From assembly GCA_017430235.1 (NCBI GenBank), contig JAFRNH010000104.1, positions 1-51,115 on the forward strand: 51,115 nucleotides of DNA, given 5' to 3'. The notes under the pieces are model-generated. The model had not been told where the DNA came from. It searched no databases and was given only the letters and a program-made list of their open reading frames with translations. Of this stretch, positions 30,376 to 51,115 are shown piece after piece. The stretch's first letter is position 1. Each line of letters opens with the position of its first letter. This DNA is from Paludibacteraceae bacterium. GTDB lineage: Bacteria > Bacteroidota > Bacteroidia > Bacteroidales > Paludibacteraceae. A program made the position numbers and the translations under genes.

Positions 30376-31203
30376 CTAAAAGCCATCATACGCTATTGAC
30401 CTCCTTCTCAGTCTTTGAAGAGGGAATGTGACGCCCATCTTCAATCCTGCGCAGATAGTAGTCACCTTACCTGTAAGGGTAGTATTCAAAATGCTTTTAT
30501 TATCAAATCCAAACTGAGCATCGTGATTCGACACCAAATCGTTCAATCCATACGAGAAATAGGCTCCAATGTGTAGCACACACGAATTTTTGACAACATA
30601 GCTCCACTTCACATCCATAGAAAGTGAGATAATAAGAATTTCTGTATCTATATCGCCCCACTTATTCTCATTTTGCTCGTCGACTCTATCGGGTGAGACA
30701 TCCAACAACTCCGTATTTATATTATTACCATTTCCCAAAGATCCTGTTACATATTCGAATTTGGAAATGAGAGGGAAGGATAATTTCGGACCAACTCCAA
30801 AGAAAAAATGGGAACGACGATTTATTTTGTGACGAAGATTAAAGAGTACGGGCACATCAATATGAAGAAATCTTTGCTTTTCGTAAACATTACCATAAAA
30901 CACCTCATCACTTTCTTCATCTGATTTTTCGTAGATATCTTTAAAATCACAACCTGCAGCGAAATATGAAAATTGTACGCCCACAGCATAGCCTAGTTTT
31001 TTCGAGAAGAACTGCTGATACAGTCCCTCTAACATCACATTTCCACCTACATATCTTCTTCCCATTTCCTGAGTATAAAGCAAGTCATCAAATCCACCAC
31101 CGACAGAGATGTTAAACAACTTGTCCTGCGCTCCAACATACTGCGGTAGAAAAGCCAACAGTACCCATAGAAATTTAAAAAATACCCTTTTCTCTAATTT
31201 CAT
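30376..31203 (-). CDS. Outer-membrane beta-barrel protein paired with the giant surface protein (cassette 1)
   Basis: This 275-residue precursor has a signal peptide (ending about AFLPQYVGA) and KLFNISVGGGFDDLLYT at the mature start. Amphipathic, aromatic-rich strands follow, such as LGYAVGVQFSYFAAG, FFFGVGPKLSFPLISKFEYV, VLHIGAYFSYGLNDLVSNHD and AGLKMGVTFPL. The pattern fits a PorT-like outer-membrane beta-barrel (PF13568 type), though the chain ends with a short basic tail. It is a paralogue of the protein at 41133-41984. By eye roughly 40-45% of residues match, best at the mature start and around YFSYGxxDxVSNHDA. Its ATG shares one base with the stop of the 3266-residue gene (TAATG), implying translational coupling. 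I infer an export or anchoring partner for that protein. Confidence 0.8.
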   Translation of the reverse strand: MKLEKRVFFKFLWVLLAFLPQYVGAQDKLFNISVGGGFDDLLYTQEMGRRYVGGNVMLEGLYQQFFSKKLGYAVGVQFSYFAAGCDFKDIYEKSDEESDEVFYGNVYEKQRFLHIDVPVLFNLRHKINRRSHFFFGVGPKLSFPLISKFEYVTGSLGNGNNINTELLDVSPDRVDEQNENKWGDIDTEILIISLSMDVKWSYVVKNSCVLHIGAYFSYGLNDLVSNHDAQFGFDNKSILNTTLTGKVTTICAGLKMGVTFPLQRLRRRSIAYDGF

Positions 31204-31950
31204 TATTTAATCAACACTTTACAATTCGCATTTTTACCATCACTCACAGTCAATACAATGACATATTCACCCAAACCTAAACGCATTTCATTCTCTACCT
31301 CCACATCATCTATAATGCGTGCCACCACACCATCTGAACGATAGATCACGATACGTGCATCTTTCAGGTGATAATCATCCACACCCGACACGGAGATAAT
31401 GAAGTCTGTTCCTCTATCCACAACATTTGGATGTGCAGAGACCGAGTATCCCGCCTCCTCTATTTGGAATGACGTTGGTTCTATGAAGTAACACTTACCA
31501 TAGACATCACATACATAAACCATATATTCGCCATTCAAAAGAGTTATATCATTGTAATACTGGTGAGATTCTTTTTCTTGCTTTCTTCTGTCTTTATACC
31601 ACAAGTATGATTGGAAGATGCCATCACCGTTGCGACAAATCACCACATCGTTCCACACCTTCACATAGTAGCTGTTCTCCTTGTTGTCTGGCAACATAAC
31701 GTTGAACTCAAAATCACTGGACGCACGTCCGTTACGTCCATCATACATCACCAATGTAGCGGTATAGGCACCCGGTGTGAAGTCCTCCGGACAGATCAAC
31801 TGTACGGTGCTGTCATTCGTCACAGCACCCTCGGTAATTATCACTCCCTCGTACCATATCTCATAGCGTGAACCACCGCCCTCCAATAGCTCATAGCCGA
31901 TGGTCTCCGAGCCACCTGGCAACACCAGATAGAGAGTATCATCCACGGTC
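31203..31950 (-). other. C-terminal region of giant 1 with T9SS-like sorting domain
   Basis: This codes for the segment from LHLTVDDTLYLVLPGG to the stop. The final 80 or so residues have the PN-x-x-x-x-G-x-x-F start, DARIVIYRSDGVVARI centre, LGEYVIVLTVSDGK strand and KVLIK end expected of a type A sorting domain. Over the last 157 residues it differs from giant 2 at only about 9 positions. Confidence 0.65.
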
Positions 31951-34900
31951 AGGTGAAGAGACTTGTACTTATTGAGGTCCTCATACACTGCTGTGATATA
32001 ATATACTGACTCATCTCCCACTGCTGTCAATTCCTTATCCCAGCCAATGAAGAAATAATCTTCACCCATAGTCGGTGTCTCTCCTTTGTATTCTGGGACT
32101 TCATTACAATTGATAGTATCCTTCCATAACACCGTACTGTCTGGATTTTGGAAGATGACTATCACCGCACCCCTCATTATCTCAAAGTCATCTGGCACCT
32201 CAGACACTCCATGCTTGTCGTACGTGCTACCGCATGGGAAGATGAACACACCTGGTCCATCCACACCAGAAACCCAGTCTCTTGTTGCGCCATACTCAAA
32301 ATTATTATCCAGACTCATCACACCCACTTTGATGTAATTCAGACTGTGACATTCTCCAAACATACCATTATAGCATTCATTCACCAACTCTGCCGCTGGC
32401 AATTCCGGTGCAGTTGTCAGATTAGAACATCCATTGAACATGTTTCCATAACAATATTCTGCCAAGGTAGTAGCTGGTAATTCAGGAGCATCCGTCAAAG
32501 ATGAACATTTTGAGAACATTCCAGCATAACAGCTATGCGCCAAAGTTGTCGCAGGTAGTTCTGGAGCTTTTGTCAAACTTGTACATTCACGGAACATCCA
32601 TCTATAGCACTCATCAGATAGCGTCGTTGCAATTAACTTCGGTGTTTCTGTAAGACTCGTACACCCTGAAAACATAGAAGCATAACAAGCATTTGCCAAT
32701 TGGGTAGCAGGAAGCTCAGGTGCCGCAACCAAACTTTCACAGGAATAAAACATAGAAGCATAACAACTAGGAGCCAATTCTGTAGCTGGAAGTTGTGGTG
32801 CCTCAGTAAGATTTGAACACAATTCAAACATAGAAAGATAACATCTGTCTGCCATCTTTGTAGCAAGCAATGCTGGAGCTTGTGTCAGAGATGTGCACTG
32901 ATAGAACATAGATTCATAACAACTTTCTTTCAAAGTAGTGGCCGACAATTCTGGTGCTTGAATCAAAGAGGAGCATTCCTCAAATAATTTATAAAAGCAA
33001 TTCTCATTAGGGATTTCTATCGTCTCTCCTACCTCATCAATCAAACTCATCACACTACCAGAAGCAGTAATCGAACCTGTCATTCCAAAATGAGTATAAA
33101 TGCCAGGCATAATCAAGTCTAGCGCAGAACGGTCTCTTTCATGAGAGAAACCAGATGGGTTATTACCTCGAAGATAAACCTTATCACCCACAGAAGTCAA
33201 AACCACATGTTCTTCTGGTGCTAACACGTTCCAGGTACGTCCTCCATCTACAGAATACTGTACATCCGGAGCATTATCCATTTCATTCACATACCACACT
33301 TCAGACCCAGCCTCTTCTGCCGTGAAGCACAAACACTTACTAACATCCGTGATCGATGCTTGTTCCTCTTCATACACTGCCGTATAATAGAACGTGTCTG
33401 GTTCTGGATGTATCGTCAATTCAGGATCCCAACCTTTGAAGACAAGTCCTTCGCCATAAGTTGGTGTCTCACCTCTATACTCAGGCAACACATCGCAACC
33501 AATCGTATCACGATACAGCTCCTCGCCATCTGGATTTTGGAATATGACAACAGGAGAACTGATGATCTTGAAATTATCTGGAACCTCCGAAATACCATGT
33601 TTATCATACTTGCTGCCACATGGGAAGATAAAGGTACCAGGACCGTTCACTCCAGTAACCCACTCATTGGTAGCTGCAAAATCATTATCCAGAGTCATGA
33701 CACCCACCTTGATATAATTCAGGTTGCTGCAACCTGCGAACATTCCTTCATAGCAACCTGGTTTCAACTCTGTAGCAAGCAGTTCGGGTGCTGATTCCAT
33801 ATTCTTACATAAACGGAACATACCCCAATAGCATGAATCCATCAGATCCGTGGCTGGCAACTCTGGGGCTACTACAATGCCACTATTACTGAACATACCT
33901 TCGTAGCAGTACTTCGACAACTTCGTAGCTGGCAAGGCTGGTGCTATTTCCAAGCTACGACAATTATTGAACATGGAGACATAACATGAAGAAGCCAACT
34001 CCGTAGCTGGCAAGACAGGAGCTTCCTTCAACAAACTACAAGTTCCAAACATATCTAAATAACATCCCATGGTCAAAGTAGTGGCTGGCAGCTCTGGCGC
34101 CTTTGTAAGCGCAGTTGTCATAACATCTTCATGTTGCTGAGGATTTCTTGTACTATTAAACAAATGAGCGAAGCAGTAATCACAAGGTATGACTAAAGAT
34201 TCTCCCTTCCCATCAATCAAGCTCATCACACTACCACTTGCAGCAATTTCTCCCGACATTTTAAAATTTGTAAACTGACCTACTTCCTCACCATCTGATT
34301 TTTGTAAGTTCGCCATGTGAGAGAAACCATCGGGATTAGTACCTCTTACATAAATTTTTTCACCTACATTCTTTAAGATTAGAACTTCATTTTCACCCCA
34401 TGACTGCCATGTTCTTCCTTCATCTATAGAGTATTGTACATCTGGAGAGTTTCCTCCATGGTTCTGATAATACACATATGAATTAGCTTTTTCTGCCGTA
34501 AAACAAAGGCACTTGCTAACATCCGTGATCGATGTCTGTCCCTCTTCATACACTGCCGTATAATAGAACGTATCTGGTTCTGGATGTATCGTCAATTCAG
34601 GATTCCAACCTTTGAAGACAAGTCCTTCGCCATAAGTTGGTGTCTCACCTCTATACTCAGGCAACACATCGCAACCAATCGTATCACGATACAGCTCCTC
34701 GCCATCTGGATTTTGGAAGATGACAACAGGAGAACTGATGATTTTGAAATGATCAGGGACTTCCGAAATACCATGTTTATCATACTTGCTGCCGCATGGG
34801 AAGATGAAGACGCCCTCACCATCTATTTCTTGCACCCAATTCAATGTGGCATCAAAATCATTGTCCAAGGTCATAACACCCACCTTGATGTAATTTAAAC

Positions 34901-37900
34901 GAGAGCAATCGAGGAACATAGCCTCATAACAACCAGCCTTCAATTCAGTAGCAAGCAATTCAGGCGCTTCCGTCAGACGATGGCAACCAACGAACATATG
35001 CGAATAGCAATAAGCTGCCAATGTAGTGGCAGGAAGAACAGGAGCAGTCTCCAGATTCTCACAAATATAAAACATACCCGAGTAACAACTATCCGCCAAT
35101 GTGGTACTCAACAATTCTGGCGCTGTTTGTAACATCTGACAACCAGCGAACATCATATGATAGCAAGATTCAGCTAATGTAGTGGCAGGTAAAGTTGGAG
35201 ATTGGGTTAAATTCGTGCATTCATTAAACATAGCATCATAACATCCTCTCGTCAAGGTAGTAGCTGTCAGTTCTGGTGCTTGAGTCAAACTACAAGATTC
35301 GAACAACGAACTGAAACAATATTCACTTGGAATCACGTTGTAGTATCCTTCTCCATCTATCAAACTCATCACACTACCAGATGCAGCGACCTTACCCGAA
35401 ATATGGAATTGGGTCGGGTGTTCCCTACTAAAGGAAAAACCATCTGGATTAACTCCTCTAACATAAATTTTATCACCTACATTGTCAAATACCAGTTTAT
35501 TTTCTCCCCATGTTTCACTTCTCACAAATGGTTGCCATGTTACTCCACTATCTATGGAATACTCTATATTCGGAATATGATCGTCAGGACTTTCATACCA
35601 TATCCACGAGCCAGCCTCCTCAATAGTGAAGCAGAGACATCTACTAACATCCCTGATAGGTGTCAGTTCCTTTTCATACACTGCCGTATAATAGAACGTA
35701 TCTGGTTCTGGATGTATCGTCAGTTCAGGATCCCAACCTTTGAAGACAAGTCCTTCTTTATAAGTTGGTGTCTCGCCTCTATACACAGGCAACACATCGC
35801 AACCAATTGTGTCGCGATATAGTTCCTCGCCATCTGGATTCTGGAATACGACAACAGGAGAACTGATAATCGTGAAATTATCGGGAACCTCCGACCTACC
35901 ATGTTTGTCATACTTGCTGCCACATGGGAAGACGAAGACTCCAAAACCATCGATACCAGCAACCCAGTTAGTTGTAGCATCGAAACTATTATCCAAAGAC
36001 AGAACACCCACTTTGATATAAATCAAATTGGAACATCCCTCGAACATATACATATAACACGCAGGAGCCAGTTCTTGAGCAGGTAATTCTGGTGCCTCCG
36101 TCAGATTTTCACATCCAAGAAACATAGAATTGTAACAATACATTGCCAATTTAGTGGCAGGTAATTCAGGTGCCTCAAGTAATTTTTCACATCCTGAAAA
36201 CATACTCGAATAGCAAAAGTCTTTCATAACAGTAGCAGGCAATGCTGGTGCTTTCGTCAGATTTCCACATTCAGTAAACATACCCTCGTAACAAGACTCC
36301 TCCAATTCAGTTGCCGGTAATGCTGGAGCGACCTCTAAATTCCAACAATCCCAGAACATATTACTATAACAACTCTTAGCTAAATGAGTCGCTGGCAATG
36401 CTGGTGCTTCCGTCAGTCCATAGCAACCACTAAACATGCCATAATAGCAAGAATCGGCCATTACGGTTGCAGGCAGTAGAGGTGCTTCTGTCACCTCCAT
36501 ACAAGAAGAAAACATTGTATAGTAACACTCTTTTGCCAATGTAGTAGCTGGCAACATAGGTGTTTCTTTTATCTTGTAACATTGTCCAAACATATTCTTA
36601 TAACACCGATCCGCCAACGTAGTCGCAGGTAATGCAGGAACTTTTTCCAAAACAGCACAATTTTCGAACATTCCTTCGTAACAAGATTTTTTTAATTCCG
36701 TAGCAGGTAATTCCGGTGCTGTCACCAATGCTGGTGAATTGGCAAACAGATGATAAAAACAATAATCAGTAGGTATCTCTAAGGAAACTCCCTCTTCATC
36801 AATCAGGCTCATCACACTTCCTGATGCAGAAACTTTTCCTCTCGTCCATATATGTGTATAATTATTTTCATCCTTTGAGAAACCTGTTGGATTATCACCT
36901 TTTAAATAGACCTTATCGCCTTGTTTTTCTAGTTTAACGTCTTCATCTTCCTGCAATGGTTTCCACGTTTTCCCTTCATCTACAGAGTACATCACATCTG
37001 GTTGGTTATTTCCGACGCTAATATATGACACAACAGAGTTATCCTCTTCTGCCGTAAAACAGAGCCAATTACCTAAAATCGGCTGATATTCCTCATATAC
37101 TGCAGTATAATAATACGTATCAGGTTTCTCATGAATCGTCAGTTCCTTGTCCCAACCTTTGAAGACAAGACCTTCTCCATAAGTTGGTGTCTCACCTCTA
37201 TACACAGGCATCACATCGCAACCGATCGTGTCACGATACAGTTCCTCTCCATCTGGGTTTTGGAAGACTACGATTGGAGAACTGATGATGGTAAAGTTCT
37301 CTGGTACTTCAGAGACTCCATGTTTGTCATACTTGCTACCACATGGGAAGACAAAGACACCATCTCCATCTATGCCGTCAACCCAATTTTTTGTCGCATT
37401 GAAATTATTATCTAACGTCAAGACATTCACCTTGATATAATTCAAACTAGTACAGCCTTTGAACATTTCCAAATAACAATCTTTCGCCCATGTGGTAGCT
37501 AGCAATTCTGGAGCTTTGGTCAAGCTAGTACACTCACCAAACATTTTTATATAACAACTATCTCGTAATGTAGTTGCCGGCAAATCAGGAACTTCTGTCA
37601 AACTGCTACAACCATAGAACATACAATTATAGCACTGAGACGTTAATTGCGTTGCAGGCAACGCCGATGCTTTTTTCAAACCGTCACAGAAAATGAACAT
37701 GCCCGAATAGCATCCCAATGCCAGTTGCGTAGCTGGCAATTCAGGTGCTTGAATTAGGTTGGAACAGCTCCTAAACATACTCACATAACAATATCTCTTC
37801 ATTGTAGTTGCCGTCAATTCAGGTGCTGACACAAGTGCAGTCTGGTTAGAAAACAGATAAGAGAAACAATGCTCACAAGGTATCTCCTTCGCTTCACCTA

Positions 37901-40900
37901 CTCCGTCAATTAGACTCATCAAGCTACCGGAAGCAGCAATGCGTCCTGTCAGACGGAAGCTAGTATTATGAACGGATGACGGATTACTTTGCAGAAGTGC
38001 TACTAGTCCAATAGTATGAGAGAACCCATCTGGATTAACTCCCTTCACATAGACCTTGTCTCCTACATTTTTCAAAGTCACGACATCCGTTTCTGCCCAT
38101 GGCACCCATGTCTGTCCGCTATCCAAAGAGTAATGGATATCTGGTTCATTGTTCACGTTATAAAGTCCTACCGTAGAACCAGCCTCTTCAGCTGTAAAGC
38201 AAAGCCAATTGTTCTTTGCGACAGGTTTTTCTTCGTAAACAGCCGTATAGTAATAAGTGCCTGAAGTATCATGAATAGCCAACGCTGGATCCCAGCCATT
38301 GAAGACAAGATTCTCCCCATAGGTTGGTGTCTCACCCTTATACTCAGGCAATTCATTGCAACCAATCGTGTCTCGATACAATTCCTCTCCGTCTGGATTT
38401 TGGAACACTACGATTGGAGAACTGATGATGGTAAAGTTCTCTGGTACTTCAGAGACTCCATGTTTGTCATACTTGCTACCACAAGGGAAGACAAACACTC
38501 CTTCATAATCAATGCCTTCAACCCAATTTGTTGTAGCATTGAATTGATTATCCAAGGACATAACACCCACTTTGATGCTATCCAAGACAAAAACTTTCGT
38601 AAACATCTCTTCATAACAACCTTCCACCAATACAGTAGCAGGCAATTCAACATTTCCATGCTTAATACTACCTCCTTCTTTGAACATTCCCGCATAGCAA
38701 TATTCTGACAACTCTGTTGCTGGCAATGTTGGAATTCCGTTTAACAGAGTTCCGAAAAACATATAGGCGTAACATCTGCTTGCCAATGTTGTGGCTGGTA
38801 ATGTAGGTGTCTGTTCAATACTACCACAACCATAAAACATGCTCTCATAGCAAGAAGGAGCTAATTCTATTGCTGGCAATTCAGGTATATTTTCTAAAGA
38901 CGAACACATCACAAACATATCTTTATAGCAAGACGGAGCCAATTCTGTTGCTGGCAATTCAGGTGCCTTTTCTAATTTATAACAGTTATAAAACATGCCT
39001 TGATAACAAGATTCTGCCAAGATGGTGGCTGGCAGCTTTGGTGCCTGAAGCAAGTTCTCACAAGCACCAAACATCCTATTGTAACATGATTTTTCCATCA
39101 CAACAGCAGGTAATTCTGGCGCATTTTCTAATTTATCACACATATAAAACATACCAGCGTAACAACTCTCTGCCAAAGTGGTGGCTGGCAGTTGTGGCAC
39201 TTCTTGAAGGTTTTCACACATACAAAACATGTCAGCACAACAACTCTCTGCCAAAGTAGTGGCTGGAATTATTTCTGGTCCTTTTTGTAGATTTGAACAG
39301 CCATAAAACATACTAGCATAACAGTGTTTTTTCAATTTTGTAGCCGTTAATTCCGGTGCTTGTACAATTCCATCTTGAAGTGAGAACAAGCTGTAAAAAC
39401 AATAGTCGTTCGGAATCTCCGTCGCTTCTCCTTTTTGATCGATTAAACTCATCACACTTCCCGATGCTGCTATCCAACCCAAATTAAACACGCTATATTG
39501 AGATTCACTAAACGAAAAGCCATCTGGATTATCGCCTCTTAAATACATCTTGTCTCCTTTGTTTTTTAAAACGACTGCCTCTCCATGGCGTAAATAATGC
39601 CACGTTATTCCACTATCCAAAGTATACTCCACATCAGGATAATTATTTCCAAAATTATTATATAACACTGAGGAACCATCCTTGACCGCAGTAAAGCAAA
39701 GTACTTTATCAAGACTTGGTGTTTTTTTCTCGATCTCTTTAAATATTCCGGTATAGTAATAGACCCCTGGAACTGAATGTCTCGTCACTTCCTTATCCCA
39801 ATCCACAAACTCATAGTCATCCCTCCAATATGGTGGTTCTATTCCTCGATATACTGGCATCACATCGCATCCAATCGTATCTCGATATATTTCCGTACTA
39901 TCTGGATTCTGAAAGACAACAATTGGAGAACTGACAATTGTAAAGTTTGTTGGCACTTCCGACGCACCATGCTTGTCATATTTACTACCGCAAAGGAAGA
40001 TAAAGACTCCCTCTCCATCTATACCGTCGACCCATTTTTTTGTTGCATCCAAATCATTATCCAACGTCAAGACATTCACCTTGATATAATTCAAACTAGT
40101 ACAGCCACTGAACATTTCCGAATAACATCCTTTCTTCCACGAATCAGCTGGCAACTCAGGAGCCTTAACCAAACTGGTACAGCCACTGAACATTTTGTAA
40201 TAACAAGAGTCTGCCAACTCTGTAGCAACCAATTTCGGAGCTTCAGCTAGACTTTCGCAACCTATGAACATAGAATTATAACATCTCGGTGCCAATTTTG
40301 TAGCTGACAACTCTGGCGATTTAATCAATTTTGAACAGTACGCAAACATACCCCAATAGCTACCTGTCTCCATCTTAGTGGCAGGCAACGATGCTGGTAC
40401 ATCTGTCAAACTTGAGCAATTGAGGAACATGCTTATATAACATCTAGCAGCCAACTCTGTAGCAGGCAGTTCGGGTGCGTTGGTCAAGTTGGTACATTTC
40501 TGGAACATCAACGCATAGCAATTCGGAGCCAACTCAGTGGCAGGCAACTCTGGTGCTTTCGTGAGGGAAACACAGTCACGGAACAAATCAGAGAAACAGT
40601 AGGCACATGGTATTTTGGTAGAGGTACCCACTCCATCTATCAAGCTCATCACACTACCGCTGGCTGCAATACGACCCGACATTTTGAAGCGAGAGTTGGT
40701 CGTTCCTGGTCCATTCGCATCATTAGATGAATTATCATGAGAAAAGCCATCTGGATTATCACCACGAACATAGACTTTATCACCTATATTCGCTAACGTC
40801 ACAGGTGTATCTGCAGGCCAATCAGACCAGTTCACACCATTTAAAGAGTATTGTACATTCGGTTCGTTGTCAGCCCCATTCACATACCACACACTGGACC

Positions 40901-41003: not shown

Positions 41004-41030
41004 TTCATTCTAAATTTACATTCCCTTATC

Positions 41031-41056
41031 AAGATGAATCCTATAAATCCATTTCG
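41031..41056 (-). repeat. Dispersed element, copy C (diverged)
   Basis: On the minus strand CGAAATGGATTTATAGGATT (41056-41037) followed by CATCTT matches copy B with five mismatches in 26 nt, all transitions. It lies in the leader about 30 nt before the giant 1 start and can form a small hairpin AATCC/GGATT with its flank. Confidence 0.4.
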
Positions 41057-41132
41057 TGGGATTTTGAAACGACAGAACTCATCTGATATAACTAAATATA
41101 TGTTTATTTATTTTCCCCCTTATATCATTTTA

Positions 41133-41984
41133 TCACCATCCGTCAGAAGCAAATCGTTTACCACCCTTCTTCAATGGAAGGGAAACACCTACTTTCGCGC
41201 CCACACAGATAGGAACAATCTTCTCCGTCAAACTGCTGTTCAGGATACTTTTCCGACTGATACCCATGGTGGCATCATGATTCGACACCATATCGGTGAT
41301 GCCATACGAGAAATAAAGTCCCATGTGCAACATACATGAATTATTAATGCTGTAGGTCCACATCATATCTCCGAAGATAGAGAGCAGCACTATATTCCGA
41401 TCTATGTCATTTCGTCCGTTGGCATCTTGTTTATGCAGTCCATGATGTGGTATCTCCGAAAGTTCTGCTTCGATATCTCCACCGAAATAGGCTCTTGTCT
41501 CCACCGAACCTCTCGAATATTTATATTTGGAAACGAGAGGAAAAGCCACCTTTGGACCCGCACCAATAATGAAATGCGTACGGGAGTTCAGTTCAAACTG
41601 TCCGTAGAGTCCTACGGGAACCTCCAACTGGAAGGTCTGTTGCTTCTCATTGAAATCATTGAAGATGGTACGAAGCGTATAAGGAACACCCGCATCCGTC
41701 TCGTCAACAATCTGTTTCTCGATTGTCTCATTGATATAGTAGTTGGCTGTAAAATAAGATAAGCCAAGGCCCACTCCATATCCCAAATTTTTCAGGAAGA
41801 ATTGCTGATACTGCCACTCGAACAATACTCCTCCACCGGGTTTTGGTTTTCCTATTTCCGGCGTGTAACTCAATATCTCCATTCCCCCACCGAGAGAGAT
41901 GTTGAACAACTTTTCCTGTGCTGGGACCAACTGTGGCAACAGTGCCACGGCAGTCCACATCAATCGCTTAAATAATCTATTCAT
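41133..41984 (-). CDS. Outer-membrane beta-barrel protein paired with the giant surface protein (cassette 2)
   Basis: This 283-residue paralogue of the protein at 30376-31203 has a signal peptide (ending ALLPQLVPA) and the mature start QEKLFNISLGGGMEILSYT. Barrel-like strands include YQQFFLKNLGYGVGLGLSYF, FIIGAGPKVAFPLVSKYKYS, MLHMGLYFSYGITDMVSNHD and VGAKVGVSLPL. The end (KKGGKRFASDGW) differs from the paralogue (RLRRRSIAYDGF) but both stop with an aromatic residue, as expected for barrel assembly by the BAM complex. It starts 10 nt after the stop of giant 2. Between it and giant 1 lie 129 nt with no clear terminator, so all four genes may form one transcript. Confidence 0.8.
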   Translation of the reverse strand: MNRLFKRLMWTAVALLPQLVPAQEKLFNISLGGGMEILSYTPEIGKPKPGGGVLFEWQYQQFFLKNLGYGVGLGLSYFTANYYINETIEKQIVDETDAGVPYTLRTIFNDFNEKQQTFQLEVPVGLYGQFELNSRTHFIIGAGPKVAFPLVSKYKYSRGSVETRAYFGGDIEAELSEIPHHGLHKQDANGRNDIDRNIVLLSIFGDMMWTYSINNSCMLHMGLYFSYGITDMVSNHDATMGISRKSILNSSLTEKIVPICVGAKVGVSLPLKKGGKRFASDGW

Positions 41985-41994
41985 AATTATGCCT

Positions 41995-42760
41995 CTATTT
42001 TATCAATACCTTACAATTTGCATTTTTACCATCACTCACGGTCAATACAATCACATATTCACCCAAACCTAAATGCATCTCATTTTCTACCTCCACCTCA
42101 TCTATGATGCGTGCCACCACACCATCTGAGCGATAAATTACGATACGAGCATCTTTCAAGTGAGAATCATCCACACCCGACACTGTGATAATGAAGTCTG
42201 TACCTCTATCCACAACATTTGGATGTGCAGAAACCGCATATTCTGCCTCTTCTATCTGGAATGAGGTTGGTTCTATGAAGTAACACTTACCGTAGACATC
42301 ACATACATAAACCATATATTCACCATCCAACAGTGTTATATCATTGTAATACTGGTGAGATCCATTCTCTTGTTTTCTTCTGTCTTTATACCACAAGTAT
42401 GATTGGAAGATGCCATCGCCGTTGCGACAGATCACCACATCGTTCCACACCTTCACATAGTAACTGTTCTCCTTGTTGTCTGGCAACATGACGTTGAATT
42501 CAAAATCGCTGGACGCACGTTCGTCATTCTCATCATACATCACCAAGGTTGCCTCATAGGAGCCTGGAGTCAGTTCTGCAGGGCATTTCAGCAGAACGAT
42601 GCTGTCATTCGTCACCACTCCATCACTAATCTTCACCCCATCGTACCATATCTCATAGCGTGAGCCTCCGCCCTCCAACAGTTCATAACCAATGTTCTCT
42701 GAGCCACCAGGCAACACCAAGTAGAGATCATCGTCTACAATCAGATGAAGTGGATCATTC
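41995..42760 (-). other. C-terminal region of giant 2 with T9SS-like sorting domain
   Basis: This is the coding segment for LHLIVDDDLYL to the stop, nearly identical in DNA to 31203-31950. Substitutions concentrate in the first 80 residues (for example NGRASSD versus NDERASSD). Confidence 0.65.
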
Positions 42761-45700
42761 TGCATATCCTCGTACACTGCCGTATAATAATAAACGCCAG
42801 GGCTCTCATGGATGGTTGGTTCTTTGTCCCAGCCTCTAAAGTAATATCCACTCATGGATGGGGTCTCTCCTCCATAGACAGGCACCACGTCGCAACCGAT
42901 GGTGTCGCGCCACAGTTCCGTACTGTCAGGATTTTGGAAGATAACAATCGGAGAACTGATAATCTCGAAATTATCAGGAACCTCCGAAATACCATGTTTG
43001 TCATACTTGCTACCGCATGGGAAGATGAAGACACCTTCGCCATCAATACCCGTCACCCACTCTTCTGTGGCATCAAATTCATTATCCAAGGTCATGACAC
43101 CCACCTTGATGTAATTTAAGTTGGAACAAGCAGAGAACATATACATATAACATTTCTCAACCAATTCAGTCGCTGGCAATTCAGGTGCTTTAGTCAAACT
43201 CGTACAAGCAGAGAACATCTTTACATAACATTCCTCAACCAATTCAGTCGCAGGCAATTCTGGTGCATTAATCAAACCTGTACAAACAGCGAACATATAT
43301 GAATAACAACTTTTAGACAAAGTCTTTGCTGGCAACTCAGGCGCTTGAGTCAAACTTGTACATCCCAAAAACATAGCAGAATAACAACCTTCCATCATGG
43401 TAGTGGCAGGCAACTCTGGAACTTTAGTCAAACTCTTACACCCTGTGAACATTAAATAATAACAATATTCCGCCAAGGTAGTGGCAGGCAACTCAAGCAC
43501 CGAGGTCAAACCTGTACAACCTGAGAACATTTCAGAATAACAATTTTCCGTCAAAGTTGTGGCAGGCAATTTTGGTGTCTGAATCAAACTTGTACATTCA
43601 TGGAACATAGCAGAATAACAGTTTTTACTCAAAACCGTAGCAGGCAATTCGGGTGCCTGTGTTAGAGAACTACACGCTTGAAATAATCCCCAAAAACATC
43701 CATCATTTGGAATGACTGTCGATTCACCTACACCATCAATCAAACTCATCACGCTACCACTGGCTGCAATAGAACCATTCATTGTAAAATGAGTAGAAAC
43801 ACCTTCAGCTTTCGAGAAGCCATTAGGATTGAATCCTCTAAAATAGACCTTGTCTCCTACATTTGCGAGTACTACCATTTCATCTCTCAACAAAATCTGC
43901 CATGTTTTTCCTTCGTCAATAGAATACTGCACATCTGGAGCTGAACTACCATACCACACTCCCACTTCAGACCCAGCCTCTTCTGCCGTGAAGCACAAGC
44001 ACTTGCTAACATCCGTGATAGGTGTCAGTTCCTCTTCATACACTGCCGTATAATAGAACGTGTCTGGTTCTGGATGTATTGTCAGTTCCTTGTCCCAACC
44101 TTTGAAAACAAGTCCTTCTTTATAAGTTGGTGTCTCACCTCTATACTCAGGCAATACATCGCAACCGATTGTATCACGATACAGCTCCTCTCCATCTGGA
44201 TTTTGGAAGATGACAACATTTGAACCTATTATCCTGAAATTAACAGGGACCTGAGAAGCGCCATGCTTGTCATACTTACTGCCGCATGGGAAGATAAAGA
44301 CGCCCTCTTTTTTCACGTCATAAACCCAGTAGCTTGTTGAATTATTCAACGTCATAACGCCCACCTTAATATAATTTAAATTAGAGCATTCACGGAACAT
44401 GTTGTGGTAACAACTACTCACCAATTCCTTGGCTGGTAATTCAGGTGCTTTTTCAAGGGATTTACATCTTTCAAACATACCATAATAGCAACCAATATTT
44501 AACTTCGTAGCTGGCAATTCAGGTGCAACTCTCAAGTTTGTACATCCATAGAACATAAAAGAATAACATGCACTGTCCAATTCTGTAGCTGGCAATTCGG
44601 GTGCAACAGTCAAACTTGTACATCCATAGAACATTTCTCGATAACACAAATCACTCAAATGTGTGGCTGGCAGTTCAGGTGCATTTACCAAGCTCGTACA
44701 TCCTCTGAACATATCAGCATAACATGCACTGTCCAATTCTGTAGCCGGCAATTCGGGTGCTTGAGTCAGATGCGTACAACCGTTAAACATATAATAATAA
44801 CATTCATCAGCCAATTTTGTAGCAGGTAATTCGGGTGCTTGTGTCAAATGGGCACATTCAGAAAACATAGAAGAATAACAACCCTTTTTCAACTCTATTG
44901 CGGGTAATTCAGGTGTTTGAGTCAAACCATCGCATCCAGAAAACATATGAGAATAACATCTATCAGCCAATTCCGTAGCGGGTAATTCGGGGGCTTGAGT
45001 CAAATAATCACAGCCAGAAAACATAGAAGAATAACAACCCTCTTTTAACTCTGTTGCGGGTAATTCAGGTGCTTGAGTCAAACCATCGCATCCAGAAAAC
45101 ATATAAGAATAACATCTATCAGCCAATTCTGTAGCAGGTAATTCGGGTGCTTTCTCTATGGATTTGCAGGAGCTAAACATACCATGATAGCAATCCTCTT
45201 TTAACTCTGTAGCAGGTAGTTTTGGAGCCTTAGTTAGTTCAAAACAATTTTGGAACATTTGGTAATAACAACTATCCGTCAAAGTTGTAGCAGGCAATTC
45301 GGGTGCTTGAGTCAGAGTTTCACAATTATTAAACAAATATGCGAAACAACCGTTATTAGGAATCACATTCGTAACACCAATGCCATCAATCAAACTCATC
45401 ACACTTCCACTTGCCGCTATCCTTCCTGACATTCGGAAATTCACGTCACCGCTTTCTTCACTAACATTCGAAAATCCTTCAGGATTATATCCTTTGAAAT
45501 AGACTTTGTCTCCTTTAGAGTATAGGACTACATGTTCCTCTGAATTCAAGGAATTCCATGTAAGTCCTTCATCCAACGAATACTGCACATCAGGACTATC
45601 TTCACTATAATACCACACTTCCGAGTTATCCTCTTCTGCCGTAAAACAAAGCCAATTGCCGGTTTCAGGTGTTTTCTCTTCCTCATATACAGCCGTATAA

Positions 45701-48700
45701 TAATACGTATCAGGCACTTCATGCACCGTCAGTTCCTTATCCCAACCTTTGAAGATGAGTCCGTCGCCATAAGTTGGCATCTCCCCCCTGTACACAGGCA
45801 ACACATTACAACCAATTGTGTCACGATACAACTCCTCTCTGTCTGGATTTTGGAAGACTACAATTGGGGAACCGACAATCTTGAAATTATCTGGCACTTC
45901 GGAGACACCATGTTTGTCATACTTGCTGCCGCACGGGAAGATGAAGGTACCATCGCCTTCAACTCCTTGCACCCAATTCCTTGTTGCAAAAAAGAAATTG
46001 TCCAAGGACATGACACCCACCTTGATGTAATTCAAACTAGAACAATTATTGAACATAAGAGAATAACATTCTCGAACCAACTCAGAAGCAGGTAGTTCAG
46101 GCGCTTCTATCAAATTTGTACAACCATCAAACATCTGGCTATAACAATTTATCTCTAACTGAGTAGCAGGCAACTGTGGAGCTTCAATCAAATTGACGCA
46201 ATCATAGAACATAGCACTATAACATCCGTGTGCCAATATCATAGCCGGAAGTTGAGGTGCTTTCGTCAAACTATGACAGCCTGCGAACATTGCAAAATAG
46301 CAAAAGTCAGCCATTGTTTTAGCTGGTAATTCAGCAACATGAGTAAGACTTTCACATTGGGCAAACATATTTGCATAACATTTATTTGCCAATGTGGTCG
46401 CAGGCAATTCAGGCATCTCCATTAAGTCGAGACATCCCACAAACATATATTGATAACAAGCCTCCGACATAATAGTTGCAGGTAAATCAGGGGCTTTCTT
46501 CAAAGAAGTACATCCTAAAAACATATTGGAATAACAACTATCCATCAATGTAGTGGCTGGTAATTCAGGAGCTTGTGTGAGAGACTCACAATTGGCGAAC
46601 AGATAAGAAAAACAATTTTTATTCGGGATAATCGTGGATCTGCCTGTTTCGTCGATCAGACTCATTACACTACCACTGGCGGAGAGACGACCACTCATAG
46701 AAAATGTGCATCCCATTTGATAGTCTCCACTGTAGTTTCCATTCAACCCATTTGGATTGTCACCTTTCAAATAAACCTTATCCCCTATATTCTCCAACGT
46801 GATTTTCTCTTCTTGTTTCAATGTTTGCCATGACTTACCTTCATCGATAGAGTATTGTATAGTAATATTTCCGCCATCCAGACCGCGATACCACACTTGC
46901 GAGCCAGCTTCCTCAGCCGTGAAGCATAGCCAGTTACCTATCTCATGAGGACCCTCTTCCACATATTCAGCAGTATAATAAAACGTATCAGGCACCTCAT
47001 GTATCGTCAGTTCCTTATCCCAACCAGTAAACACATAACCATCCTTCCAATAAGGGGGGTCAACCCCTCGATAGACAGGCACTACATCACAAGGAATCGT
47101 ATCTCGATAAAGCTCTACACTATCAGGGTTTTGGAAAATCACAATCGGAGAACTGATAATCTTAAAATCATATGGCACTTCTGAATCTCCATGCTTGTCA
47201 TACTTGCTACCACATGGGAAGATAAAGGTACCTTGATTATATATGTCAGAGACCCAATTAGAGGTCGCATAAACATCATTATCCAAAGTGAGAACGCCAA
47301 CTTTGATATAATTTAGGCTGGAACATTTATAAAACATTTCAGAGTAACATTCGTAAGTCAAATTCGTAGCAGGCAATTCGGGTGCTTTTTCAAGGCTACT
47401 ACATTCAAAGAACATAGCCAAATAGCATCTTTTTGCCAAATTCACAGCAGGCAATTCAGGTGCTTTAGTAAGAGATTTGCAGCCAAGGAACATCGACAAA
47501 TAACACTCATCTTTCAACGTCGTAGCTGGCAATTCGGGAGCATACGTGAGAGATTCACAAACTTGGAACATGTGTGCATAACAATCCTCTTCCAAATTTG
47601 TGGCAGGTAAAATATCAGGAATGGTGGTCAAATTCTTACAATATTCAAACATGCCAAAATAGCAAGACTCAGCCAATCGTGTAGCTGGCAATTCTGGTGC
47701 AGTTATAAGATCAAGACAATAATTAAACATACAGTAATAGCAATATCCTTTCAAAGAAAGAGCAGGCAATTCTGGAGCAGTTGTAATGGAGGTTCTTTCA
47801 AACAATTGATAAAAACAATAGTCATTTGGTATCACCTGAGTTTCACCAGTTTCATCAATCAGACTCATCACGCTACCACTAGCTGCTAATTTTCCTTTCG
47901 TTACAAAACGGGTGAGTTGCAGTGAACCATGAGAGAATCCTGTCGGGTTATTTCCCCGAACATAGACTTTATCACCTACATTTGCCAATGTAATCTGTGC
48001 ATTGGGTTCCCACTTAAACCAATTTTCACCTCCATCTATGGAATATTGCATATCAGGTTTATTTTCAAACATATTCTCATAAGAGACATAGGCTCCAGCC
48101 TCCTCAGCAGTAAAACAGAGCCAATTACCTGTTTGCGAAGAAGATGTTGATTCATATATAGCAACGTAATAATAAACGTCAGGTATCTCATGGACTGTTA
48201 GTTCCTTATCCCATTTTTTAAACTCATATCCATCCTTCCAATAAGGAGGCTGTACGCCTCTATATTCTGCTTTCACATCACAACCGATTGTATCACGCCA
48301 TAGCTCTGTACCATCCGGATTTTGGAAGATGATAATTGGAGATGCTTTAATATCAAAGTTGGTTGGCACTTCCGACTCACCATGTTTGTCGTATTTGCTA
48401 CCACAAGGGAATTCAAAAAGTCCTGGTCCATCTATATTGGCAACCCAATTGTTCGTTGCATCCAAATCATTATCCAACGACATGACTCCCACTTTGATGC
48501 GGAACAAGTTTTCACAAGCGTAGAACATCATAAGATAACATTCCGACACTAACTCTGTAGCAGGCAACTCAGGTGCCACAGACAGACTTTTACAACCCAA
48601 GAACATCTCTGCATAACAGCTCGGCTTCAAAACAGTGGCTGGCAACTCTGGCGCAACACGCAAATTCGTGCATCCCCAAAACATTCCGTAATAACAAGAA

Positions 48701-51115
48701 GGAGAAAGGTTCATAGCAGGTAATGCAGGAGCCTCTTCCAAACTTTCACATTGGCCAAACATAGCACCGTAACAACCATCAGCCAAATTCGTCGAAGCCA
48801 ATGTAGGTGCCTCCACAAGAGAACTACATCCATAAAACATAGAACCATAACAGGTTTCTGTCAAATCTAATGCAGGCAAAGCTGGAGCCGATATCAAAGA
48901 CGAACAATTAAAATACATATTCGCATAGCATGCATCCGCTAATTGGGTCGCAGGCAAAACCTTAACCGTCGACACAATGTTTCTACAGTTCATGAACATA
49001 CCATTATAACACTCCGTAGCCAAATTCGTAGCAGGCAATTCTGGAGTAGAGGTCAGTCCCATACAATTAGCGAACATGTTTTCATAACAATTGTCTTTCA
49101 AAGTAAGAGCCGTCAACTTAGGTGCTCGCGTAAGAGCGGAACAATGCATAAACAAACCGTGGAAGCATGATTTATTCGGAATCTCAGTAGTTCTTCCTGT
49201 TCCATCAATCAAACTCATCACAGTACCCGAAGCGGAAACAGAACCTCCTAATCCAATATAAGTATATACATTGGCGCCTTGAGAGAATCCATTCGGATTA
49301 TTTCCTCTAACATAGATTCTGTCACCCACATTTCCGAACGTAACCGTAACATTTGCTTCCAAATCTTGCCATGTTTCACCTTCATCCGTAGAATATTGCA
49401 CATTCGGGTTATTGTCTCCTTGGTTTCTATAGAAGAAATAACAATCTACATCTTCGGCAGTAAAACAGAGCCAATCTCCTTTCGAAGGATCCGTTGATTC
49501 ATACTCAGCGGTATAATAATACACACCTGGTTCCTCATGGATAGTTAGTTCTTTATCCCATTTTTTAAATACAAATCCTTCTTTCCAGTAAGGTGGCTCA
49601 ACACCTTTATATTCTGCCTTCACATCACAACCGATGGTATCTCGCCACAACTCCGTATTATCAGGGTTTTGGAAGACGATAATTGGAGATGATTTAATCT
49701 CAAAGTTGATTGGCACCTCAGAAACTCCATGTTTGTCGTACTTACTACCACAAGGGAAGACAAAAAGACCGGGTCCATCCACATTGCTCACCCATCGTTC
49801 TGTAGCTCTTGGTACAATATCCAAAGAATAGACTGCCACCTCCATATAATTCAAACTCGTACAGCCATCGAACATATACCAATAACAGAAATCAGCCCAC
49901 TCAGTAGCAGGCAACATCGGAGCCTTCTCCAAACTAGTGCATTTTGTGAACATGTAAGCATAACAATACGGTTCCAACTTTTCCGCAGGCAATACGGGAG
50001 CATAGTTAAGACTTTCACATTGTCCAAACATGGCGTAATAGCATTTTTCTTTCAGAATTTTTGCCGGCAAATTCGGAGCTACAACAAGACTCTTGCACCC
50101 ATAAAACATATTTGAATAACAACTTTCAGCTAACGTCACAGATGACAATATAGGTGCTGTCTTCAGACTGGTACAATTCTGAAACATGCGGAAATAACAG
50201 CGACTCTCCATTATATTCGAAGGCAATTCCGGAGATTCAAGCAAGCTCGAACATCCGTAAAAAAGATCTTCATAACAATTAGGAGCTAACGTCGTTGCAG
50301 GAAGTTCAGGTGCTTTAGTCAGATTGACACATTCCTGAAACATTTGCATATAACATCCCTTAGTCAAACTGAGAGCTGGAAGCTTCGGGGCTTGTGTTAA
50401 TGATTCACAGTATTCAAACAAACTGTAGAAACAGGAATCAGAAGGAATGACATTCGTCATACCCGCTCCATCAATCAAACTCATCACACTACCACTTGCA
50501 GCTATACGCCCCGTCATCTCAAAATAAGTATAATCATGAGTTCCAAAAGAGAAACCTGCCTCATTGAATCCACGAAGGTATACCTTATCACCTGCATCCT
50601 CCAGTGTCACCACCTCTTTTTCATTCAATTTATACCATTTCGTTTCATCTAAGGAATATTCAATATCAGGACTATTGTCCCTTACATTTTCATACCAAAA
50701 TTGTGATCCGTCCTCTTCTGCCGTGAAACAGAGATAATCCGTATATATGGGAGATGTTGTTCCCCCATATATAGCCGTATAATAATAGACGCCAGGTTCC
50801 GAAATAGGTTCAATTTGTTTATCCCACCCCAGAAAAGGATGATCATCATCCAAGTAAGGATCTATATCTCCATCATCAGGTTTTTCATCGCACTTGATGG
50901 TATCTGTTTTCCATATCTTACCATCTGAATTTTGGAAGATTATTATTGGAGAACCTACAATTGAAAAGTTTGTCGGAGCTTCTGATATTCCATGCTTATT
51001 GTATCTACTGCCACAAGGGAAGATGATGACACCCTCACCATCTACTCCTTCTACCCAATCTGATGTCGCATTAATGGAATTATCCAAAGACATAACACCC
51101 ACCTTGATATACTTC
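41995..51115 (-). CDS. Giant secreted repeat protein 2, 5' end outside the window (more than 3037 aa): LRR super-modules plus T9SS-like tail
   Basis: The frame is open from the right edge (KYIKVGVMSLDN, the end of an array) to the stop at 41995, so at least one further module and the signal peptide lie beyond the window. Six complete super-modules start near 50735, 49475, 48120, 46930, 45650 and 44000, with 7, 8, 6, 7, 12 and 7 repeats (47 in total). Domain order is the same as in giant 1: CFTAEE beta domain, CYxxMF array, beta-grasp with VVFQNPDxxELYRDT. The C-terminal part (from LHLIVDDDLYLVLPGG) is almost the same as in giant 1 and ends KNANCKVLIK, a T9SS type A-like sorting end. Several linkers use a PPYWKDGYEFKKWDKELT version common in this protein and rare in giant 1. 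It is followed after 10 nt by the barrel gene. I infer a surface adhesin; it might instead be a structural fibre. Confidence 0.88.
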   Translation of the reverse strand, partial: KYIKVGVMSLDNSINATSDWVEGVDGEGVIIFPCGSRYNKHGISEAPTNFSIVGSPIIIFQNSDGKIWKTDTIKCDEKPDDGDIDPYLDDDHPFLGWDKQIEPISEPGVYYYTAIYGGTTSPIYTDYLCFTAEEDGSQFWYENVRDNSPDIEYSLDETKWYKLNEKEVVTLEDAGDKVYLRGFNEAGFSFGTHDYTYFEMTGRIAASGSVMSLIDGAGMTNVIPSDSCFYSLFEYCESLTQAPKLPALSLTKGCYMQMFQECVNLTKAPELPATTLAPNCYEDLFYGCSSLLESPELPSNIMESRCYFRMFQNCTSLKTAPILSSVTLAESCYSNMFYGCKSLVVAPNLPAKILKEKCYYAMFGQCESLNYAPVLPAEKLEPYCYAYMFTKCTSLEKAPMLPATEWADFCYWYMFDGCTSLNYMEVAVYSLDIVPRATERWVSNVDGPGLFVFPCGSKYDKHGVSEVPINFEIKSSPIIVFQNPDNTELWRDTIGCDVKAEYKGVEPPYWKEGFVFKKWDKELTIHEEPGVYYYTAEYESTDPSKGDWLCFTAEDVDCYFFYRNQGDNNPNVQYSTDEGETWQDLEANVTVTFGNVGDRIYVRGNNPNGFSQGANVYTYIGLGGSVSASGTVMSLIDGTGRTTEIPNKSCFHGLFMHCSALTRAPKLTALTLKDNCYENMFANCMGLTSTPELPATNLATECYNGMFMNCRNIVSTVKVLPATQLADACYANMYFNCSSLISAPALPALDLTETCYGSMFYGCSSLVEAPTLASTNLADGCYGAMFGQCESLEEAPALPAMNLSPSCYYGMFWGCTNLRVAPELPATVLKPSCYAEMFLGCKSLSVAPELPATELVSECYLMMFYACENLFRIKVGVMSLDNDLDATNNWVANIDGPGLFEFPCGSKYDKHGESEVPTNFDIKASPIIIFQNPDGTELWRDTIGCDVKAEYRGVQPPYWKDGYEFKKWDKELTVHEIPDVYYYVAIYESTSSSQTGNWLCFTAEEAGAYVSYENMFENKPDMQYSIDGGENWFKWEPNAQITLANVGDKVYVRGNNPTGFSHGSLQLTRFVTKGKLAASGSVMSLIDETGETQVIPNDYCFYQLFERTSITTAPELPALSLKGYCYYCMFNYCLDLITAPELPATRLAESCYFGMFEYCKNLTTIPDILPATNLEEDCYAHMFQVCESLTYAPELPATTLKDECYLSMFLGCKSLTKAPELPAVNLAKRCYLAMFFECSSLEKAPELPATNLTYECYSEMFYKCSSLNYIKVGVLTLDNDVYATSNWVSDIYNQGTFIFPCGSKYDKHGDSEVPYDFKIISSPIVIFQNPDSVELYRDTIPCDVVPVYRGVDPPYWKDGYVFTGWDKELTIHEVPDTFYYTAEYVEEGPHEIGNWLCFTAEEAGSQVWYRGLDGGNITIQYSIDEGKSWQTLKQEEKITLENIGDKVYLKGDNPNGLNGNYSGDYQMGCTFSMSGRLSASGSVMSLIDETGRSTIIPNKNCFSYLFANCESLTQAPELPATTLMDSCYSNMFLGCTSLKKAPDLPATIMSEACYQYMFVGCLDLMEMPELPATTLANKCYANMFAQCESLTHVAELPAKTMADFCYFAMFAGCHSLTKAPQLPAMILAHGCYSAMFYDCVNLIEAPQLPATQLEINCYSQMFDGCTNLIEAPELPASELVRECYSLMFNNCSSLNYIKVGVMSLDNFFFATRNWVQGVEGDGTFIFPCGSKYDKHGVSEVPDNFKIVGSPIVVFQNPDREELYRDTIGCNVLPVYRGEMPTYGDGLIFKGWDKELTVHEVPDTYYYTAVYEEEKTPETGNWLCFTAEEDNSEVWYYSEDSPDVQYSLDEGLTWNSLNSEEHVVLYSKGDKVYFKGYNPEGFSNVSEESGDVNFRMSGRIAASGSVMSLIDGIGVTNVIPNNGCFAYLFNNCETLTQAPELPATTLTDSCYYQMFQNCFELTKAPKLPATELKEDCYHGMFSSCKSIEKAPELPATELADRCYSYMFSGCDGLTQAPELPATELKEGCYSSMFSGCDYLTQAPELPATELADRCYSHMFSGCDGLTQTPELPAIELKKGCYSSMFSECAHLTQAPELPATKLADECYYYMFNGCTHLTQAPELPATELDSACYADMFRGCTSLVNAPELPATHLSDLCYREMFYGCTSLTVAPELPATELDSACYSFMFYGCTNLRVAPELPATKLNIGCYYGMFERCKSLEKAPELPAKELVSSCYHNMFRECSNLNYIKVGVMTLNNSTSYWVYDVKKEGVFIFPCGSKYDKHGASQVPVNFRIIGSNVVIFQNPDGEELYRDTIGCDVLPEYRGETPTYKEGLVFKGWDKELTIHPEPDTFYYTAVYEEELTPITDVSKCLCFTAEEAGSEVGVWYGSSAPDVQYSIDEGKTWQILLRDEMVVLANVGDKVYFRGFNPNGFSKAEGVSTHFTMNGSIAASGSVMSLIDGVGESTVIPNDGCFWGLFQACSSLTQAPELPATVLSKNCYSAMFHECTSLIQTPKLPATTLTENCYSEMFSGCTGLTSVLELPATTLAEYCYYLMFTGCKSLTKVPELPATTMMEGCYSAMFLGCTSLTQAPELPAKTLSKSCYSYMFAVCTGLINAPELPATELVEECYVKMFSACTSLTKAPELPATELVEKCYMYMFSACSNLNYIKVGVMTLDNEFDATEEWVTGIDGEGVFIFPCGSKYDKHGISEVPDNFEIISSPIVIFQNPDSTELWRDTIGCDVVPVYGGETPSMSGYYFRGWDKEPTIHESPGVYYYTAVYEDMQNDPLHLIVDDDLYLVLPGGSENIGYELLEGGGSRYEIWYDGVKISDGVVTNDSIVLLKCPAELTPGSYEATLVMYDENDERASSDFEFNVMLPDNKENSYYVKVWNDVVICRNGDGIFQSYLWYKDRRKQENGSHQYYNDITLLDGEYMVYVCDVYGKCYFIEPTSFQIEEAEYAVSAHPNVVDRGTDFIITVSGVDDSHLKDARIVIYRSDGVVARIIDEVEVENEMHLGLGEYVIVLTVSDGKNANCKVLIK
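43107..43704 (-). repeat. 78-bp LRR array, giant 2 module next to the C-terminus (7 repeats)
   Basis: Seven regular repeats after the cap CFWGLFQACSSL. The final two are nearly the same (ATELVEECYVKMFSACTSL and ATELVEKCYMYMFSACSNL), pointing to a recent single-repeat duplication. Confidence 0.8.
44367..45352 (-). repeat. 78-bp LRR array, giant 2 (12 repeats, longest array)
   Basis: Twelve repeats after the cap CFAYLFNNCETL. A two-repeat unit is duplicated inside (44861-45172). ADRCYS and KEGCYS or KKGCYS repeats alternate there. The linker after the array has lost several residues (TLNNSTSYWVYDVKKEG). Confidence 0.85.
44861..45172 (-). repeat. Tandem 156-bp duplication (two LRR units)
   Basis: Segments 44861-45016 and 45017-45172 align without gaps and with only scattered differences, including at synonymous sites. 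GAAAACATAGAAGAATAACA begins both copies. This is far closer than neighbouring repeats and indicates recent unequal exchange or slippage. Confidence 0.8.
46021..46618 (-). repeat. 78-bp LRR array, giant 2 (7 repeats)
   Basis: Seven repeats after the cap CFSYLFANCESL, including a variant HVAELPAKTM and MEMPELPATTL. The second Cys is kept in every repeat. Confidence 0.8.
47302..47822 (-). repeat. 78-bp LRR array, giant 2 (6 repeats)
   Basis: Six repeats after a cap CFYQLFERTSITTAPEL that has lost its Cys. One repeat carries an inserted residue (IPDILPATNL). Confidence 0.8.
48494..49172 (-). repeat. 78-bp LRR array, giant 2 (8 repeats)
   Basis: Eight repeats after the cap CFHGLFMHCSAL. One has MY in place of MF (CYANMYFNC), and another has an insert (STVKVLPATQL). 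Confidence 0.8.
49841..50435 (-). repeat. 78-bp LRR array, giant 2 first complete module in the window (7 repeats)
   Basis: Seven repeats after the cap CFYSLFEYCESL. CYEDLFYGC replaces Met by Leu. The end differs from the usual KVGVMTLDN (MEVAVYSLDIVPRATERW). Confidence 0.8.

Follow-up and report, generated by a model that had tools for sequence, protein, structure and literature searches.

Giant Bacteroidota proteins with an Ig-like module and a type-A-like T9SS tail are usually encoded directly upstream of a small OMP_b-brl_2 barrel

A gene pair that is present in many Bacteroidota could be firmly established, in which a giant protein with one particular C-terminal tail is followed by a small barrel protein. 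The mark of the pair is an Ig-like module plus a type-A-like T9SS tail at the C-terminus of the first protein, combined with one subfamily of barrels. The reading that we favour, with a probability of roughly 0.55, is that the barrel acts as a dedicated outer-membrane receptor and anchor for the giant, similar to the PG1035-PorP-PorE arrangement but recruited from another barrel family; the anchoring role is what we infer from the sequences.

The window, i.e. the whole stretch of 51,115 nucleotides that was analysed, is the entire contig C102 of a Paludibacteraceae genome (G000; 2.7 Mb, estimated to be 88% complete). It contains two adjacent cassettes with the same gene order, both on the minus strand:

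41995..51114, minus strand: giant A, at least 3039 residues, truncated at its 5' end where the contig stops; super-modules of LRR_5 (BspA)
42253..42474, minus strand: Ig-like 'YQWYK' module of giant A, profile score 93.4 bits
41998..42252, minus strand: C-terminal T9SS tail of giant A, type-A-like from its alignment with the tail of the C65 paralogue
41133..41984, minus strand: barrel A, 283 residues, PF13568 (OMP_b-brl_2), 30.5 bits (cut-off 27)
41004..41132, no strand: spacer separating the cassettes, 129 nt
31203..41003, minus strand: giant B, 3266 residues, built as giant A
31461..31682, minus strand: Ig-like 'YQWYK' module of giant B, profile score 93.3 bits
31206..31460, minus strand: C-terminal T9SS tail of giant B, type-A-like from its alignment with other such tails
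30376..31203, minus strand: barrel B, 275 residues, PF13568 (OMP_b-brl_2), 33.7 bits (cut-off 27)

This layout agrees with a preliminary description of the locus, which had reported two units of the same order and strand, giants of over 3000 residues built of LRR super-modules, barrels of about 280 residues, and spacings that all proved correct: 10 nt between giant A and barrel A, an overlap of the barrel B start codon with the giant B stop codon (TAATG), and 129 nt between the units. Both giants match LRR_5 (BspA-type) in Pfam, and motif counts give six to seven super-modules in each, composed of LRRs and an InlB-like piece. Each ends in the Ig-like module (YQWYK or similar) followed by the type-A-like tail. 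The N-termini of giant B and barrel A are signal-like by eye, and giant A is nearly complete, as its counterpart in a related genome (G050) has 3096 residues. The paralogy proposed for both parts also holds, with 45% identity between the two barrels and, between the two giants, 88% over the last 251 residues and 66% over the preceding 500. Two such cassettes occur on one contig of G050 in the same order as in the window, and in MAG RUG12969 one contig encodes two barrels, with 99% and 43% identity to barrel A; the tandem order is therefore not an assembly artefact of the window genome. The 20 loci nearest to the window barrels belong to MAGs of Bacteroidales and Paludibacteraceae from the ruminant gut, RUG12969 being the best (99% identity). 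Elsewhere in the window (18586-20448) a GH44 protein with a type A T9SS tail (PF18962, 39.3 bits) represents ordinary cargo without a barrel.

Assignment of the giants' tails as type-A-like is by way of paralogues, as neither TIGR04183 (the NCBIfam type A tail, at E<=1) nor PF18962 (the Pfam type A CTD) matched giants A and B. The tails align with that of the paralogue on contig C65 of the same genome, which scores 35.6 bits with TIGR04183 (cut-off 23); a second paralogue, on contig C18, stays below this cut-off with 19.1 bits, and partner proteins in two other genomes (G107:C42 and G026:C24) exceed it. A type B CTD was rejected for the window giants, which match neither TIGR04131 nor PF13585, in a search sensitive enough to detect a type B protein on C18 at 45.7 bits. 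A PDB sequence search with the Ig-tail profile returned only Ig-like domains of other proteins. The genome encodes SprA (2376 bits) and PorV (family scores of 389 and 184.7 bits), and contains 75 TIGR04183 matches at E<=0.01, which together indicate a T9SS; the presence of PorV implies that ordinary type A export is available.

The window barrels both exceed the curated cut-off of PF13568, and in an hhalign comparison the barrel profile matched nine other OMP_b-brl_2 members with a probability of 97.6%. Membership of the PorP/SprF family was rejected: no NCBIfam model, TIGR03519 included, matched the window barrels up to E=1, and neither did PF11751, and hhalign of barrel profile A4 against three PorP/SprF proteins, a thin profile, gave a probability of 2.9%. 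A comparison with the twin-cysteine C-tail of SprF and PorG gave no lead, a CxC within the last 60 residues being present in 5 of 44 short barrels. The barrel profile had no match in a PDB sequence search, and a PHROGs comparison yielded nothing informative. Two size classes could be recognized in 106 barrels among those listed: 61 have at least 390 residues and thus a long extra tail, 44 have at most 340, and one has 350. No OmpA domain (PF00691) was matched in the window barrels in a Pfam scan, while two long barrels that were scanned score 42.9 bits (C65) and 19.5 bits (C18) against a cut-off of 27.2. In OmpA, peptidoglycan is bound by the Asp after the G-H-T motif position together with a conserved Arg. 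In the 61 long tails the G-H-T (G-H/Y-T) motif is followed by Asp in 23 cases, by Cys in 22 and by another residue in 12, with a gap in 4, and an Arg is conserved in 48 of 57; the Cys variant was found in 18 genomes among the barrels listed. Wall binding is not assured, because the residue after the motif varies.

Four barrels were found in the window genome at E<=1, namely the window pair and single ones on C65 and C18, and each directly follows a protein with an Ig module and a type-A-like C-terminus. On C65 (L018) a 3073-residue InlB/LRR giant is followed by a 500-residue barrel (L018:14331-15830) with an OmpA domain, and on C18 (L020) a 1212-residue protein is followed by a 526-residue barrel, the genes overlapping by 4 nt. 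Five such C-termini were found in this genome and four of them precede a barrel; the fifth belongs to a giant of 3156 residues on C29 (L019:2135-11605), after which no barrel lies in the stretch seen. By eye, a small lipoprotein-like gene comes next to this giant and also to its counterpart in G050 (G050:C6, L160), which likewise lacks a barrel. The pair on C18 is followed, at L020:3-5537, by a classical type B protein (1539 residues; TIGR04131) and a PorP/SprF barrel (119.5 bits), and two kinds of cargo-barrel pair thus stand side by side in one gene row.

Three further arrangements were observed in these genomes. Just downstream of the C65 barrel, a 232-residue protein (L018:16095-16793) duplicates, by eye, only the OmpA-like part of that barrel. 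Contig C28 (L024:2-10128) encodes five proteins of 315-1051 residues with similar N-termini and LRR-type repeats; no T9SS tail was seen in them by eye, and the barrel profile had no match on this contig. In G050 another PF13568 barrel (G050:C47:199639-200178, L273) lies 188 nt after a 402-residue protein, the end of which resembles a type B tail by eye.

Within the family, a barrel match was found in 77 of 120 genomes. Among the 150 family barrel matches listed, 107 are directly preceded by an Ig-bearing protein, and ten by a protein in which the profile detects the tail but no Ig module scored; for 26 neither Ig module nor tail was scored, and seven lie at contig edges. Hence 117 of the 143 assessable barrels among those listed directly follow cargo. 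The preliminary description had named barrel homologues lying mostly away from giants as an outcome that would refute its proposal, and this outcome did not occur. The gap to the cargo gene has a median of 19 nt in 93 paired barrels among those listed. Seven of these 26, each of about 500 residues, belong to one genus, g19 (genomes G018, G044, G064, G081, G104, G111 and G119), and look like one cargo-free lineage; for nine others, the end of the upstream ORF resembles a type A tail by eye but did not score. At the level of the order, a barrel match was found in at least 48 of 247 genomes and at least 35 of 167 genera, in a search that scored at most ten candidates per genome, so that absences mean little. 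Cargo was present at 27 of 29 loci inspected from the 73 listed matches outside the window genome, and at 25 of 26 inspected loci outside the family. In the phylum, where at most six candidates per genome were scored and absences again mean little, at least 17 of 392 genomes had a match, and 18 of 20 matches outside the window genome had cargo. These 18 pairs all belong to 14 species of one genus, g41, which is part of another family outside the order and which may be Flavobacterium.

The converse relation was examined with an Ig profile (A3); as this profile derives from proteins encoded next to family barrels, its recovery inside the family is partly circular. In 14 family genomes 89 matches were listed, divided into strong (at least 60 bits) and weak (below 60 bits) ones. 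A barrel is adjacent to 51 of the 59 strong modules (49 listed barrels and two divergent ones), which runs counter to the other outcome named as refuting, that giants would commonly lack a following barrel. The eight unpaired strong modules comprise one at a contig edge, three in giants of tandem arrays in genome G107, and four without a barrel in the stretch seen. Two of the three array giants share the barrel of the next giants, and one precedes a giant that is cut by the contig end. Such tandem arrays of Ig-tail giants lie on two contigs of this genome (G107:C44 and G107:C2; L156 and L158), with three giants before one barrel on C44, and several giants may thus share one barrel. The 30 weak matches are no clean negative control: two directly precede a divergent barrel (G014:C26:12505 and G004:C9:34711), one (G014:C26:15808) lies in a giant that precedes the G014:C26:12505 giant in tandem, two run off their contigs (G086:C33 and G018:C13), five are followed by no barrel in the stretch seen, and the remaining 20 have none (E<=1e-4) within 3 kb. 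Outside the family, all 25 Ig matches at E<=1e-10 sit before a barrel, in 20 genomes that had been chosen for having a barrel, 17 of them with such an Ig match and three without.

Neither half of the pair shows this association when taken more broadly. None of 16 other PF13568 barrels from the window genome and G050 has such cargo, while five out of five barrels of the paired subfamily have it in the same search; the two source genomes of these 16 are related, and some of the 16 are orthologues. The idea that any PF13568 barrel would do was rejected on this count. In four genomes 349 TIGR04183 tails were found; among the 150 of these that were listed, 148 do not precede a barrel, and the two that do both carry the Ig module. 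Since other PF13568 barrels and ordinary type A tails are unpaired, the combination of Ig module and tail with one barrel subfamily is the signal. Neither the LRR body nor the size of the giant could be retained as the partner feature: the partner bodies scanned consist of LRRs, of InlB repeats with LRRs, or of GLUG, and the 75 complete cargo ORFs among the 93 paired family barrels listed have a median of 2343 residues, 13 of them being shorter than 1000. The preliminary proposal of an adhesin-export pair was thus right about the pairing, but the LRR body and giant size are not its mark, this being the Ig module and tail instead.

On the favoured reading, the giant, a repetitive and adhesin-like protein, would use its signal peptide to cross the inner membrane, and its type-A-like tail would then guide it through SprA across the outer membrane, as suggested by the tail itself and by the SprA and PorV genes. 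Outside, the Ig module and tail would dock on the barrel encoded by the neighbouring gene, to which gene pairing and co-divergence point, and this docking would replace, or come after, the general PorV/PorU route. The barrel would presumably keep the giant at the cell surface. Long barrels may tie it to the cell wall by their OmpA-like tails, and the window barrels, without such a tail, would hold it by the outer membrane alone. We consider anchoring at least as likely as a need for the barrel in export, because long OmpA-like tails are frequent and PorV is encoded in the genome. Several observations weigh against this reading: four strong Ig giants lack a barrel in the stretch seen, tandem giants can share one, ten of the listed family barrels come after a protein with a tail but no scored Ig module, the seven g19 barrels look cargo-free, and PorV makes ordinary type A export available.

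Precedents for such an arrangement exist. According to PMC12618676 and PMC9143113, the cognate PorP/SprF barrel is needed for the export of large surface cargo and also holds it. The likeness to SprB-SprF is that a large surface protein is followed by the gene for its cognate barrel; the difference is that the tail here is type-A-like rather than type B, and that the barrel is of the OMP_b-brl_2 type without a PorP/SprF match. The SprB-SprF parallel drawn in the preliminary description therefore stands as an analogy and not as kinship, in line with its own remark that the families differ. PG1035 is described in PMC9143113 as being held by a PorP barrel that PorE ties to peptidoglycan, and non-moving cargo is considered in PMC9143113 and PMC12618676 to be further tied to peptidoglycan by PorE; the former source offers precedents for barrel-anchored cargo both with and without a wall tie. 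In the pairs described here, a single protein comprises the barrel and, where there is one, the OmpA-like domain, and the barrel is of another family. PorZ keeps its T9SS tail uncleaved on a dedicated barrel, PorQ, and a review suggests that cognate barrels may protect the tail from cleavage in a similar way (PMC10202324); PorQ differs in being described as PorV-like and in being one part of the machine, not a many-copy cargo system. A giant adhesin with a periplasmic helper that strengthens anchoring is also known from Acinetobacter (AtaA-TpgA; PMC13082670), although AtaA, a trimeric autotransporter, has a membrane part of its own and involves no T9SS. BspA-type LRR_5 surface proteins share the repeat body of the window giants, but the pairing is independent of that body.

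The main rival is a carrier role in place of PorV, in which the barrel would sit at SprA and pull its own giant from the translocon, in the way that SprF acts for SprB, anchoring being secondary. We regard this as rather unlikely, even though the gene order is that of type B cargo with its PorP/SprF export partners (PMC12618676) and the barrel is strongly paired with its cargo. PMC9143113 describes PorV and the PorP-like shuttles as FadL-type barrels with 14 strands, whereas the barrel described here lacks any NCBIfam match and matches three PorP/SprF proteins neither (hhalign 2.9%, a thin profile) but matches ordinary OMP_b-brl_2 barrels (97.6%). For type A cargo, one general carrier, PorV, is described in PMC10202324, PMC12635249 and PMC12618676. 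The likeness of the present giants to cargo of the PorV/PorU route lies in the tail and the difference in a neighbouring barrel for each cargo. Their tail is type-A-like and the known carrier PorV is encoded in the genome itself, which argues against a substitute carrier, as do the four strong Ig giants that have no barrel in the stretch seen.

Comparison of the divergence of the two partners bears on whether they touch at all. Rank correlations over 70 non-redundant pairs (from 81) were 0.46 between barrel distances and Ig distances, and equally 0.46 between barrel and tail distances, and each was 0.35 with the other held constant. When partners were re-dealt within genomes, the correlation for the Ig module had a mean of 0.18 and a maximum of 0.40 (p=0.001). 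Co-divergence is expected for interacting partners, and equally for linked genes without interaction. OmpA-type proteins are general envelope stabilizers, and the barrel could similarly be an OmpA-like stabilizer that is co-expressed with the giants, or a sensor of their export, and never make contact with them. That one barrel can serve tandem giants would suit this alternative, and so would the different rates at which window barrels and giant tails diverge: relative to G050, the last 251 residues of giant B are 86.5% identical to those of its counterpart, barrel A is conserved at 95.8% and barrel B at 59.6%. We nevertheless judge it unlikely, because the pairing tracks one C-terminal build, and neither the size of the giant nor T9SS cargo as a whole (among the listed type A tails 148 of 150 are unpaired, as are all 16 other PF13568 barrels), and because co-divergence lies above the within-genome shuffles. 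A strict one-to-one lock is not needed in the window, given that the barrels share 45% identity and the giants' ends 88%, a value close to that between giant B and its G050 counterpart. The tails may have been homogenized between the cassettes, as their similarity suggests, in which case either barrel could perhaps serve either giant.

Two-partner (type V) secretion, with the barrel itself as the export pore, fits the adjacency of cargo and barrel genes but is highly improbable for a barrel of about 275 residues without a transporter-family match (no Pfam or NCBIfam match to a transporter-type barrel with POTRA domains at E<=1 in the window barrels) and for cargo with a T9SS-like tail in a genome that encodes SprA.

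A broader extension of the receptor-and-anchor reading, which is possible though doubtful, would be a further class of T9SS cargo, in which an Ig module plus an uncleaved type-A-like tail is recognized by its own OmpA-superfamily barrel, replacing PorV/PorU, and in which the long form of the barrel fixes or moves the giant via its built-in periplasmic tail. If real, this class of cargo would span the order to which the window organism belongs and, within the same taxonomic class, one or more other families.

Cargo with a barrel of its own is a known principle, of which the type-A-like tail with an OMP_b-brl_2/OmpA-type barrel is a variant. No paper recognizable as describing this combination came up in searches of open-licence PMC papers, consistent with the earlier suggestion that the pair is undescribed. 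The current view, as given in PMC12618676 and PMC12635249, is that a single general carrier serves all type A cargo, and that cognate barrels are found with type B cargo. The rule of Ig module, tail and barrel would predict from sequence which giants stay on the cell, and the pairs in genus g41 would make knock-out tests feasible if this genus is culturable. Finally, the presence of a second barrel family across many genera, with no detectable kinship to PorP/SprF and tied to one C-terminal build, points to repeated origins of cargo-specific receptors.
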